Assembly (NCBI RefSeq): GCF_004138485.1
Contig: NZ_RYEV01000003.1
Location: forward strand, 806,001 to 870,000
DNA: 64,000 bases
Direction of reading: 5' to 3'
Source: Peristeroidobacter soli
Lineage (GTDB): Bacteria > Pseudomonadota > Gammaproteobacteria > Steroidobacterales > Steroidobacteraceae
Shown here: positions 6,821-11,405 of the stretch, piece after piece
Position numbering within the stretch: the stretch's first letter is position 1
Layout of the letters: each line of letters begins with the position of its first letter
Notes under the pieces: model-generated
The model's input: only the letters and a program-made list of their open reading frames with translations
Told to the model about the DNA's origin: nothing
The model's database searches: none
Program-made: the position numbers and the translations under genes

Positions 6821-7135
6821 TTACTGCTGATTCGGGGCGCGCGGCTTCCTGCCGACGCGAACTTTTAGTTTTGTGACCTTGCTCTCACCGCAACCATTTA
6901 ACAGTTCCAGTAATTGCGTTTGCGCATAACGAATCTGCGGGCACCAGGCTGCCGAGTCGGCCAGCACGACCAGAGTGTCGTCACGGCAACTCGCTGACAC
7001 CACATGATCTTTTTCTGGTCCCGTGAGCGCAGCACGGACTCGCTCGGTCAGTTCGACGTGCGCCGCCACGCGCTGCTCGAGTTGCGCGAATAACGGGCCA
7101 ACGGTCCCGCTCAGCGGTTTGAACCGATCAGTCAT
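6821..7135 (-). CDS. dciA: DUF721 protein, probable DciA-type replicative helicase loader
   Basis: A 104-residue DUF721 protein. DUF721 proteins (DciA) recruit or load the replicative helicase DnaB in bacteria lacking DnaC/DnaI. The KH-like fold is recognisable from VVSASCRDDTLVVLADSAAWCPQIRYAQTQLLELLN, a pattern of a short beta strand, the SAAWxxxxRY helix and a leucine-rich helix (roughly residues 45-80), followed by VTKLKVRVGRKP at the end. The position between lpxC and secA is a familiar one for gammaproteobacterial DUF721 genes. It is transcribed against lpxC and divergently from the M23 gene leader. Assignment to DciA rests on family and position. Confidence 0.82.
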   Translation of the reverse strand: MTDRFKPLSGTVGPLFAQLEQRVAAHVELTERVRAALTGPEKDHVVSASCRDDTLVVLADSAAWCPQIRYAQTQLLELLNGCGESKVTKLKVRVGRKPRAPNQQ

Positions 7136-7204
7136 ACGCTGAAAGCACCAATCTGGGCGCTGGACGCTTGATCTTTTGACGCTTCGTTATGCATATTCCG
7201 ACCA

Positions 7205-7310
7205 CTGTTAAGGGCAAACCCGTCGAAAGGCGGGGACGCAAAGCCACCGGTCTACGGCAGCAGGCACGCATGCAGCGGGTCGCGCCACGATAGCGGGGTT
7301 GCCAGGATGT
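7205..7310 (+). promoter_or_regulatory. Cyclic-di-GMP-I (GEMM-I) riboswitch aptamer
   Basis: The stretch carries the diagnostic blocks of the GEMM-I aptamer in order. AGGGCAAACC starts at 7211, a GTCGAAAGGC tetraloop hairpin follows (CCCG..CGGG arms around a GAAA-type loop), then GGGACGCAAAGCC, then a CCGGTCTACGG-type P3 entry, and finally GATAGCGGGGTTGCC ending at 7303. The closing helix forms between GGCAA (7213-7217) and TTGCC (7299-7303). It lies on the coding strand about 245 bases upstream of the M23 peptidase ATG, in a 420-base gap with no gene, so it most likely controls that peptidase, and possibly secA, in response to c-di-GMP. Confidence 0.9.
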
Positions 7311-7392
7311 ACAACTCGAACATTCGGTTCTACGTCCACCGCAGTTCTGCTCGGGCCGAAGGCTGGCAAAAGTCACGCCTTTTGACGGCCTT

Positions 7393-7419
7393 GTCGAAAG
7401 GGCCTTGGCCGCTTTCGAC
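7393..7419. repeat. GTCGAAAG..CTTTCGAC palindrome, copy A
   Basis: An inverted repeat GTCGAAAG / CTTTCGAC with inner GGCC-TT-GGCC. It lies between the riboswitch and the M23 gene and, as RNA, would fold into a long stem with a single bulge. A smaller hairpin (CAAAAG/CTTTTG, 7367-7384) precedes it. No T-tract follows. Related palindromes occur at 35537-35565 and 44484-44510. It may be part of the riboswitch expression platform or simply a dispersed element. Confidence 0.65.
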
Positions 7420-7555
7420 CGGAGAAGTCTGGCCCGTTTGTCGTCGCGAACCTTGTCGCTGAAAGCGCGCCGGTTCAAGGCGGGTGTGAACGTATTGTCG
7501 TGCCGCCAGTGGAAGCTGGCCGTTTAGGGCGCGAAAGAGAGAAGGTAGTGATCAA

Positions 7556-8476
7556 ATGAACGTCATCGTGTTCTCCAAGCGCTTCGGCAAGGCTCGCCAA
7601 TTCGAGCTTGGCCGCCCCTTGGCGATGACGGTGACGATTGCGAGCGTGGTGTTCGTGCTGGCCGGCGTGCTGTTCGCGGGCGTCCAGCTCGGTCGCGGCG
7701 GCCTGTTGCTGGACCCGGCCGCGCAGGTCACGGAGTGGGGCGCGAAACTCGAGCAGCAACGCCTCGAAGTCGCCAATGCCCGGCGCGATCTGCAGGAACG
7801 GCTCGATGCGCTGACCAGCCGCGTCGGCCAGATGAATGCCCATGTGATCCGCCTCGATGCCCTGGGCCGCCGGCTCACCGAGATGGCCAATCTCGACAAG
7901 GGCGAATTCAATTTCGATAGCGAGCCCGCCGTCGGCGGTCCCGAAGGCCTGCTGGAGGGCGCCACCGTCGCCGCGCCCGAGCTGACCGCGATGCTCGATG
8001 ACCTGACCAACCAGATCCGCGATCGCGAGCGACAGCTGAGCGTGCTGGAGAGCATGATTTCCACACGCAACATGAGTCGTGAGGTGGTCCCGAATGGCCG
8101 CCCGGTGTTACAGGGCTGGATTTCTTCGCACTTCGGCTATCGCGCCGATCCGTTCACCGGTCGCAATGCCTATCACCAGGGCATCGACTTCGCCGGCCCG
8201 GCCGGCTCGCAGGTCCTGGCGGTCGCCTCCGGCGTGGTCACCTATTCCAAGGATCGCTTCGGCTACGGCCGCACGGTCGAGATCAATCACGGCAACGGCT
8301 ATGTCACGCGCTACGGCCACAACTCCAAGGCCCTGGTGCAGGTCGGCGATACCGTCCAGAAAGGCCAGCCGATCGCGCTGATCGGTTCGACCGGCCGCTC
8401 CACCGGCCCGCACCTGCATTTCGAGGTGCTCAAGCAGGGCCGTGCCGTGGATCCGATGACATTCGTGCGTCGGTAA
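7556..8476 (+). CDS. M23-family peptidoglycan endopeptidase, membrane anchored
   Basis: A 306-residue zinc metallopeptidase of the LytM/M23 family, acting on peptidoglycan cross-links in the periplasm. One N-terminal membrane segment (VTIASVVFVLAGVLFAGV, about residues 23-42) is followed by a coiled-coil stretch (residues ~65-100 and 145-175). The M23 domain shows the zinc motifs HxxxD in YHQGIDFAGP and HxH in GPHLHFEVL, plus RYGHNSK. All catalytic residues look intact. The ATG is preceded by GAGAGAAGG. A c-di-GMP riboswitch in its long leader predicts control by second messenger. secA follows 178 bases downstream. Confidence 0.93.
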   Translation: MNVIVFSKRFGKARQFELGRPLAMTVTIASVVFVLAGVLFAGVQLGRGGLLLDPAAQVTEWGAKLEQQRLEVANARRDLQERLDALTSRVGQMNAHVIRLDALGRRLTEMANLDKGEFNFDSEPAVGGPEGLLEGATVAAPELTAMLDDLTNQIRDRERQLSVLESMISTRNMSREVVPNGRPVLQGWISSHFGYRADPFTGRNAYHQGIDFAGPAGSQVLAVASGVVTYSKDRFGYGRTVEINHGNGYVTRYGHNSKALVQVGDTVQKGQPIALIGSTGRSTGPHLHFEVLKQGRAVDPMTFVRR

Positions 8477-8567
8477 AAAAGCACTCATTCCGCTTGTTTT
8501 CGCGATCGCCGCCCCCAGCCAACCGGGCGGTCCGGCCAAAGCCCGCGTTCAGCTGGCGAGACCGTAA

Positions 8568-8595
8568 TTAGAGTCGCCGGGCGCGCGTGTACAAT
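8568..8595 (+). promoter_or_regulatory. Candidate sigma-70 promoter for secA
   Basis: TTAGAG (8568-8573) and TACAAT (8590-8595) are separated by 16 bases, about 60 bases upstream of the secA start. The -10 box is good and the -35 box moderate. This suggests secA can be transcribed independently of the riboswitch-controlled M23 gene. Confidence 0.45.
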
Positions 8596-8654
8596 AACGG
8601 GCTTTTCCCAACAGGCTTTGCGGGCCCTGGCGGCCCCATCCCCGGAGTTTCAGC

Positions 8655-11405
<2,751 letters not shown>

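Follow-up and report, generated by a model that had tools for sequence, protein, structure and literature searches.

The 64 kb stretch of DNA analysed here, referred to as the window, contains the gene order lpxC, dciA (divergent), M23 and secA, with a structured RNA element placed directly in front of the third of these genes. dciA occupies 6821..7135 on the reverse strand (PF05258, 42.5 bits), while the M23 peptidase gene (7556..8476; PF01551, 124.3 bits; zinc-site residues present) and secA (8655..11405; SecA domains) both lie on the forward strand. The first-pass annotation had placed the aptamer before an M23 peptidase within an ftsZ-lpxC-secA setting, and this placement in the lpxC-dciA-M23-secA neighbourhood is upheld. 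The peptidase is of the LytM type; H207, D211, H286 and H288 do not vary among 14 sequences, and the zinc-site pattern is intact. Its M23 domain is C-terminal and its N-terminus is, by our reading, membrane-anchor-like. The protein matches the NCBIfam models for MepM, ShyA, EnvC, NlpD and others, each below cut-off, and is plausibly an active endopeptidase. The closest named relatives are found in a Steroidobacter MAG (94%) and in S. agaridevorans (93%), which places the window in Steroidobacter or near it.

The same annotation had set the element in front of both M23 and secA. The aptamer does lie in cis before M23, and secA as a joint target is weakened. A -10 box of secA itself, (GTG)TACAAT, is located at 8590..8595 on the forward strand, in the gap between the two genes, and GTGTACAAT occurs there in all 11 genus loci with a readable gap. 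Five other genera show a less strict TANNAT box in 30 of the 32 loci listed. With a conserved -10 box of its own, secA is rejected as the main target, which leaves M23 as the gene most likely served by the riboswitch; read-through of its transcript into secA is possible. The genome, of 9.37 Mb, carries seven GEMM-I elements and 45 GGDEF domains, from which it follows that c-di-GMP is probably made. Three GEMM-I aptamers lie within 2.2 kb at G000:C6:183200-185304 (L005, L006 and L007), with a spacing of 120 nt between two of them and with Ig-like and fibronectin-type proteins encoded close by, and a GAF/HD-domain protein, a possible c-di-GMP phosphodiesterase, is encoded upstream of L007. A further GEMM-I element (L001, G000:C7:104659-104745) precedes a gene whose product matches the SPOR domain marginally, at 20.6 bits for a cut-off of 21, and is possibly a second cell-wall target.

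The promoter of the M23 transcript is located at 7168..7197 on the forward strand and consists of TTGATC (7168-7173) and CATATT (7192-7197) separated by 18 nt, conserved in genus and family loci. GCATATT is present in 13/13 genus loci, the sequence reading CTTGATCTTT in 12 and CTTGATATTT in L052. Written as a regular expression, the promoter pattern matches 99 of 120 family loci, whether or not they carry an aptamer, as against 5 of 2400 single-base shuffles. In 40 of the 42 loci that have an aptamer the pattern ends 3–18 nt (mostly 5–7) ahead of it, so that transcription is expected to start at the aptamer or immediately 5' of it. A generic sigma-70 scan of the region did not report the promoter at 7168-7197.

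The element itself is a c-di-GMP-I (GEMM-I) aptamer at 7204..7307 on the forward strand and the sole Rfam match in the window (cmscan; RF03167, E 4.3e-14, 68.5 bits against a gathering score of 59). With the general model of the class, RF01051, it reaches 74.1 bits against a gathering score of 35, and the choice of RF03167 by cmscan was presumably settled by E-value. RF03167, named c-di-GMP-I-GGC, is the best clan match kept by the program and differs from the RNA at one telling position: its printed consensus reads GACGCGAA where the window RNA reads GACGCAAA, which by our reading of the consensus line places a G at the A47 position. The window has A7240 there, so the "GGC" variant label is rejected and the name is regarded as misleading rather than as a sign of changed ligand. 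Vc2 numbering was fitted by us from the ligand roles of Vc2 residues G20, A47 and C92 described in PMC4744006. The three equivalents are all present on the forward strand, namely G20 at 7213 (of the 58 M23-linked aptamers 52 have G, 4 A and 2 C), A47 at 7240 (A in 58/58) and C92 at 7302 (C in 57/58). The element had been put forward as a c-di-GMP-I riboswitch from the letters alone, and the covariance-model matches and pocket residues bear this out.

Riboswitches for 3',3'-cGAMP are GEMM-I RNAs with A at position 20, and a G20A mutant is reported to bind cGAMP (review PMC7288161). With G7213 the window does not fall into this group, and a likeness exists only in the M23-linked aptamers of L081, L113, L154 and L182, which carry the A20 linked to 3',3'-cGAMP binding. 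Those of L122 and L128 have C at this position. Judged by these bases, the orthologous aptamers before M23 may no longer all prefer the same ligand.

The fold was assessed on a MAFFT alignment of 58 M23-linked homologues, built without structure. Across it 96.8% of cells are paired, two-sided changes occur at 10 of 21 pairs and the covariation score is 0.205 compared with 0.155 in shuffles, with none of 500 shuffles attaining any of the five fold measures. P1 is formed by CUG (7205..7207) and CAG (7303..7305), with two-sided changes at two of its three pairs, the middle one being UA in 38, CG in 13 and UG in 4 homologues. P2 is a hairpin with a GAAA loop (7219..7234) and two-sided changes at 6/6 pairs, while the P3 arm (7242..7300) pairs 7242-7252 with 7289-7300 in 97.8% of cells. 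An earlier assignment of P1 to 7213-7217 and 7299-7303 (GGCAA/TTGCC) was right in that these strands are complementary, but they are not P1: the helix has no two-sided change, its middle pair is broken in 16 of 58 sequences, and its bases hold the pocket. Directly 3' of the aptamer a conserved hairpin, GGAUGUA...UACGUCC (7305..7337), shows 81% column identity in the 13 genus loci compared with 32% just downstream; 95.8% of its cells are paired, yet its covariation is not above that of shuffles. The RF01051 score, the pocket residues and the covariation of P1, P2 and P3 agree, and the window element is, judged by its sequence, a canonical, conserved c-di-GMP-I riboswitch with which the M23 mRNA is expected to begin.

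An M23 protein match (E up to 1e-45) is present in 127 of 150 family genomes, and 125 loci were searched using a model derived from this family's GEMM-I aptamers, that of the window among them; the set does not include the M23 matches of G095 and G143, the additional ones of G084 and G114, or L082, which is a truncated duplicate of L154. A strong aptamer (at least 55 bits) precedes M23 in 42 of the 125 and a weak one (17–34 bits) in 4. All lie on the M23 strand, about 18–270 nt upstream of the M23 start, the 18-nt distance belonging to L083, the M23 start of which is uncertain. In the genus that holds the window (g1) the aptamer precedes M23 in 13/13 loci, and in several other genera in none; G141, of the same genus, has a match to the riboswitch family and no M23 match. 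An Rfam run on 20 family loci found the aptamer in 18, one of the two misses being L067, where the contig begins inside the M23 gene. Among named loci 34 of 80 carry it before M23, seven of these labelled Woeseiaceae, and one Woeseiaceae locus (L250:116-229, reverse strand) holds a second aptamer-like match of 47.8 bits on the opposite strand. Conservation at this locus in relatives, proposed as a check of the original reading, is thereby supported by genus, family and named loci. It does not extend class-wide: 126 of 229 genomes have the M23 protein and only 2 of these 126 the aptamer before it, as compared by eye from the lists of M23 and GEMM-I places under stricter filters, and in class-wide loci that were scanned the count is 1 of 29. 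The two carriers are the window's genome and G315 (same order, other family), the latter with 18 GEMM-I matches in a 4.7 Mb genome.

An M23 tree with 119 rows requires 12 changes of the aptamer trait, compared with 34.6 for shuffled labels, a count in which gain and loss are not told apart. The weak copies are those of L129 (33.8 bits), L074 (28.8), L126 (25.4) and L098 (17), and pocket bases are changed in all four. The changed pocket bases of L129, L074 and L126 favour losses, and the four copies likely represent riboswitch decay, a changed ligand being possible. Possible remnants noted by eye in L158, L160, L159, L116, L093, L106 and L150 did not score as aptamers at that position and are rejected, so decay rests on L129, L074 and L126 and more weakly on L098, whose 17 bits stand little above the 15 scored by unrelated sequence at two places in other loci.

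The leader between aptamer and gene (7311-7555) harbors no intrinsic terminator. A scan of 7000-8700 gave 2 terminator-like sites, with 1.6 expected by chance, both outside the leader, so this control element is rejected and the original description of the 245-base leader as lacking a classical terminator is correct. With the aptamer set apart, folding leaves the M23 start without consistent change (41 loci, mean -0.017, Wilcoxon p 0.28); the M23-start folding values lie below those of shuffled leaders (p 0.0008, 41 loci). Leader strands complementary to the 3' part of the aptamer are not above chance (33 loci, mean z 0.20), nor are those complementary to its 5' part or to the M23 start (mean z -0.09 and 0.09, 33 loci).

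Nor should the leader be regarded as plain untranslated RNA. An open reading frame of 51 codons plus stop, with a frame conserved in relatives, begins at 7307 (7307..7462, forward strand), its start abutting P1 and its stop lying 93 nt upstream of the M23 start. The control mechanism, first called unclear, is narrowed by this aptamer-abutting start and, in many relatives, by an ORF coupled to M23. The likely Shine-Dalgarno sequence of the ORF, GGGGU (7295..7299, forward strand), is found 7 nt before the ATG and is also part of the 3' strand of P3 (alignment columns 106-110, paired with 48-53). Its anti-SD dG is -6.2 kcal/mol in the window, and the mean of 52 loci, -6.05, is only slightly lower than the -5.49 obtained when shuffled. 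M23 often has its own ribosome site as well (-6.4 kcal/mol in the window, mean -5.44).

Comparison of leaders covers 67 distinct loci, which are 75 (41 family, 33 named and L259) minus exact copies, near copies remaining; L083 and L224 were excluded from leader tests, their M23 start being uncertain. Fifty-two of the 67 have a start codon in the span -3..+3 around the end of the aptamer, and 15 lack one there. The frame from this start stops at most 12 nt from the M23 start in 44 of 67, usually with an ATGA overlap, against means of 6.0 (max 11) in full shuffles and 16.1 (max 24) in shuffles with the start kept, 200 of each type, where relatedness of the loci inflates the tests. For 45 long leaders, using the longest ORF among starts within -3..+3, stops number 13 in the ORF frame versus 83 and 55 in the other two, 36 leaders are stop-free in the ORF frame versus 9 and 18 in the others, and the M23 start is in ATGA phase of the leader ORF in 34. 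Grouping of 58 long leaders into 29 similarity clusters, the sole correction for relatedness, with the first start used, gives 19 coupled by majority, 8 without a start and 2 early, L180 and L182 being counted as early although a later start is coupled. The cluster holding the window contains 8 early, 7 coupled and 2 without a start. Early ends (more than 12 nt) occur in 8 of the 52 frames, namely those of the window, L049, L050, L051 and L056, which are five of the 13 genus loci, and of L076, L181 and L211. In genus g23 the leaders are only 49% identical on average and the frame is kept in 6/6.

The frame is also found where the leader is very short. Eight leaders measure only 27–54 nt (L102, L138, L090, L113, L114, L122, L128 and L105), and those of genus g6, at 27–40 nt, contain frames of 10–13 codons ending at +4, +1 or -6. 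Among loci with the promoter pattern such a frame (start at -3..+11) is present in 22 of 40 with an aptamer versus 6 of 55 without. Of 30 further GEMM-I elements examined in the family, 8 are followed as closely, within 3 nt, by a start codon. At L033, L040 and L043 a GTG abuts the GEMM-I aptamer and directly opens a frame of 172 codons. A conserved leader protein is rejected: the peptides are unalike, except at M-Y-N-T/S-N within the genus, and the window's peptide has no NCBIfam match. Positional GC of the leader frames is 0.59/0.61/0.65, compared with 0.70/0.44/0.78 in M23, a weak third-position bias.

On balance, these features argue for a translational OFF switch, probably relayed to M23 by the coupled leader ORF, as the more credible account of the element. 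Binding of c-di-GMP would stabilise the aptamer and hide the GGGGU ribosome site; since GGGGU lies in P3 and the start abuts P1, folding of the aptamer should block leader translation, and the liganded fold and a ribosome at 7307 would be mutually exclusive. When c-di-GMP falls, ribosomes would translate the leader frame, the peptide of which is not conserved, and pass to M23 by termination-reinitiation, with the net effect that less of a cell-wall hydrolase would be made when c-di-GMP is high. The window's frame ends 93 nt early, and the hand-over would therefore be looser there, or leader translation would work in some other way, such as holding the leader in an open or protected state. Counted against the OFF relay are the early stops, the 15 of 67 loci without a start, the weak GC bias and M23's own ribosome site, together with the null results from folding and from the searches for anti-aptamer strands. 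P3 may also fold when no ligand is bound, in which case GGGGU could be masked irrespective of c-di-GMP. A broader statement, that in Steroidobacteraceae and Woeseiaceae these riboswitches dispense with a separate expression platform, the ribosome site being embedded in P3, the signal relayed from stop to start and only leader translation selected, is offered tentatively and carries somewhat less than an even chance.

Other explanations share parts of this evidence. The element could be an ordinary GEMM-I riboswitch that governs transcript elongation or decay (Rho, RNase) within a long leader, with the ORF as a by-product of the leader's high GC content. That neither a terminator nor sequestration of the M23 start was found is in keeping with such a mode, as is the uncoupled ORF of the window, and GC-rich leaders are stop-poor in any frame, which the 9 and 18 of 45 leaders stop-free in the other frames illustrate. 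The depletion of stops specifically in the ORF frame (36 of 45 stop-free) and the coupling in 19 of 29 clusters are less easily explained as a by-product, however, and the eight leaders of 27–54 nt leave little room for Rho loading, which makes this mode rather unlikely, if still the strongest competitor. It overlaps with the question of sign. The aptamer might instead be an ON switch that raises M23 expression when bound, as is reported of Vc1 in front of gbpA; Vc1 regulates its gene positively in response to c-di-GMP (PMC4744006), and the direction is not readable from sequence. A likely leader ribosome site in P3 and a start at P1 speak for the opposite sign, as a folded aptamer should block this site, and an ON switch appears unlikely, a little more so than elongation or decay.

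The conserved AGGAUGU that follows the aptamer in the genus raises a further reading, compatible with the others, in which it would be a CsrA binding site with c-di-GMP and CsrA competing. The motif, which we take to resemble the CsrA consensus, is invariant in 13/13 genus loci and the genome has one CsrA gene, but AGGAUGU is missing after the aptamer in most of the other loci listed and its GGA is at the base of the predicted stem rather than in a loop; CsrA involvement is accordingly improbable. Least probable is a relic aptamer, functionless in the window's species. Diverged copies with changed pocket bases do exist in the relatives L129, L074, L126 and L098, whereas pocket and P1–P3 are intact in the window and aptamer and promoter are retained in 13/13 genus loci with the M23 gene. 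Should the OFF relay hold, a probable peptidoglycan hydrolase would answer directly to c-di-GMP across many members of one family and of another, and a simple answer would be available for a class I c-di-GMP aptamer with neither terminator nor detectable anti-aptamer strand; the leaders of only 27–40 nt make the mechanism easy to test.

Searches of an open-access library found no report of a GEMM or c-di-GMP riboswitch with peptidase M23, alone or together with secA, of a riboswitch in Steroidobacter, or of a c-di-GMP riboswitch with a uORF. c-di-GMP riboswitches do occur in papers that also mention peptidoglycan and endopeptidases, those listed being mostly on Clostridioides difficile. The case is one of a known riboswitch class on an M23 target for which these searches found no report, with a coupled leader ORF that is unusual and, in the window, incomplete. 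Vc2 and Vc1 of Vibrio cholerae (RF01051) resemble the window element in sequence, fold, the residues G20, A47 and C92 and a position in the 5' leader; unlike them, it has an M23 peptidase before secA as its target and an ORF starting directly after the aptamer. For the arrangement of the leader the closer parallel is the ppe2 B12 riboswitch of M. tuberculosis, where a leader ORF out of frame with the main gene overlaps it by AUGA, the downstream gene depends on that ORF and termination-reinitiation was demonstrated by experiment (PMC11260477). Both systems place a riboswitch before a leader ORF, and an AUGA-type overlap is found in most coupled relatives but not in the window, where the stop is at -93 nt. 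Compared with ppe2, the aptamer class and ligand are different here, the relay is deduced rather than experimental, and M23 often has a Shine-Dalgarno motif where PPE2 has none. Candidate features for leader control of the ppe2 type in the window are the start abutting P1 and the likely ribosome site within P3, and it is in this last respect that the M23 system stands apart from ppe2, the leader's likely ribosome site being situated in the aptamer itself.
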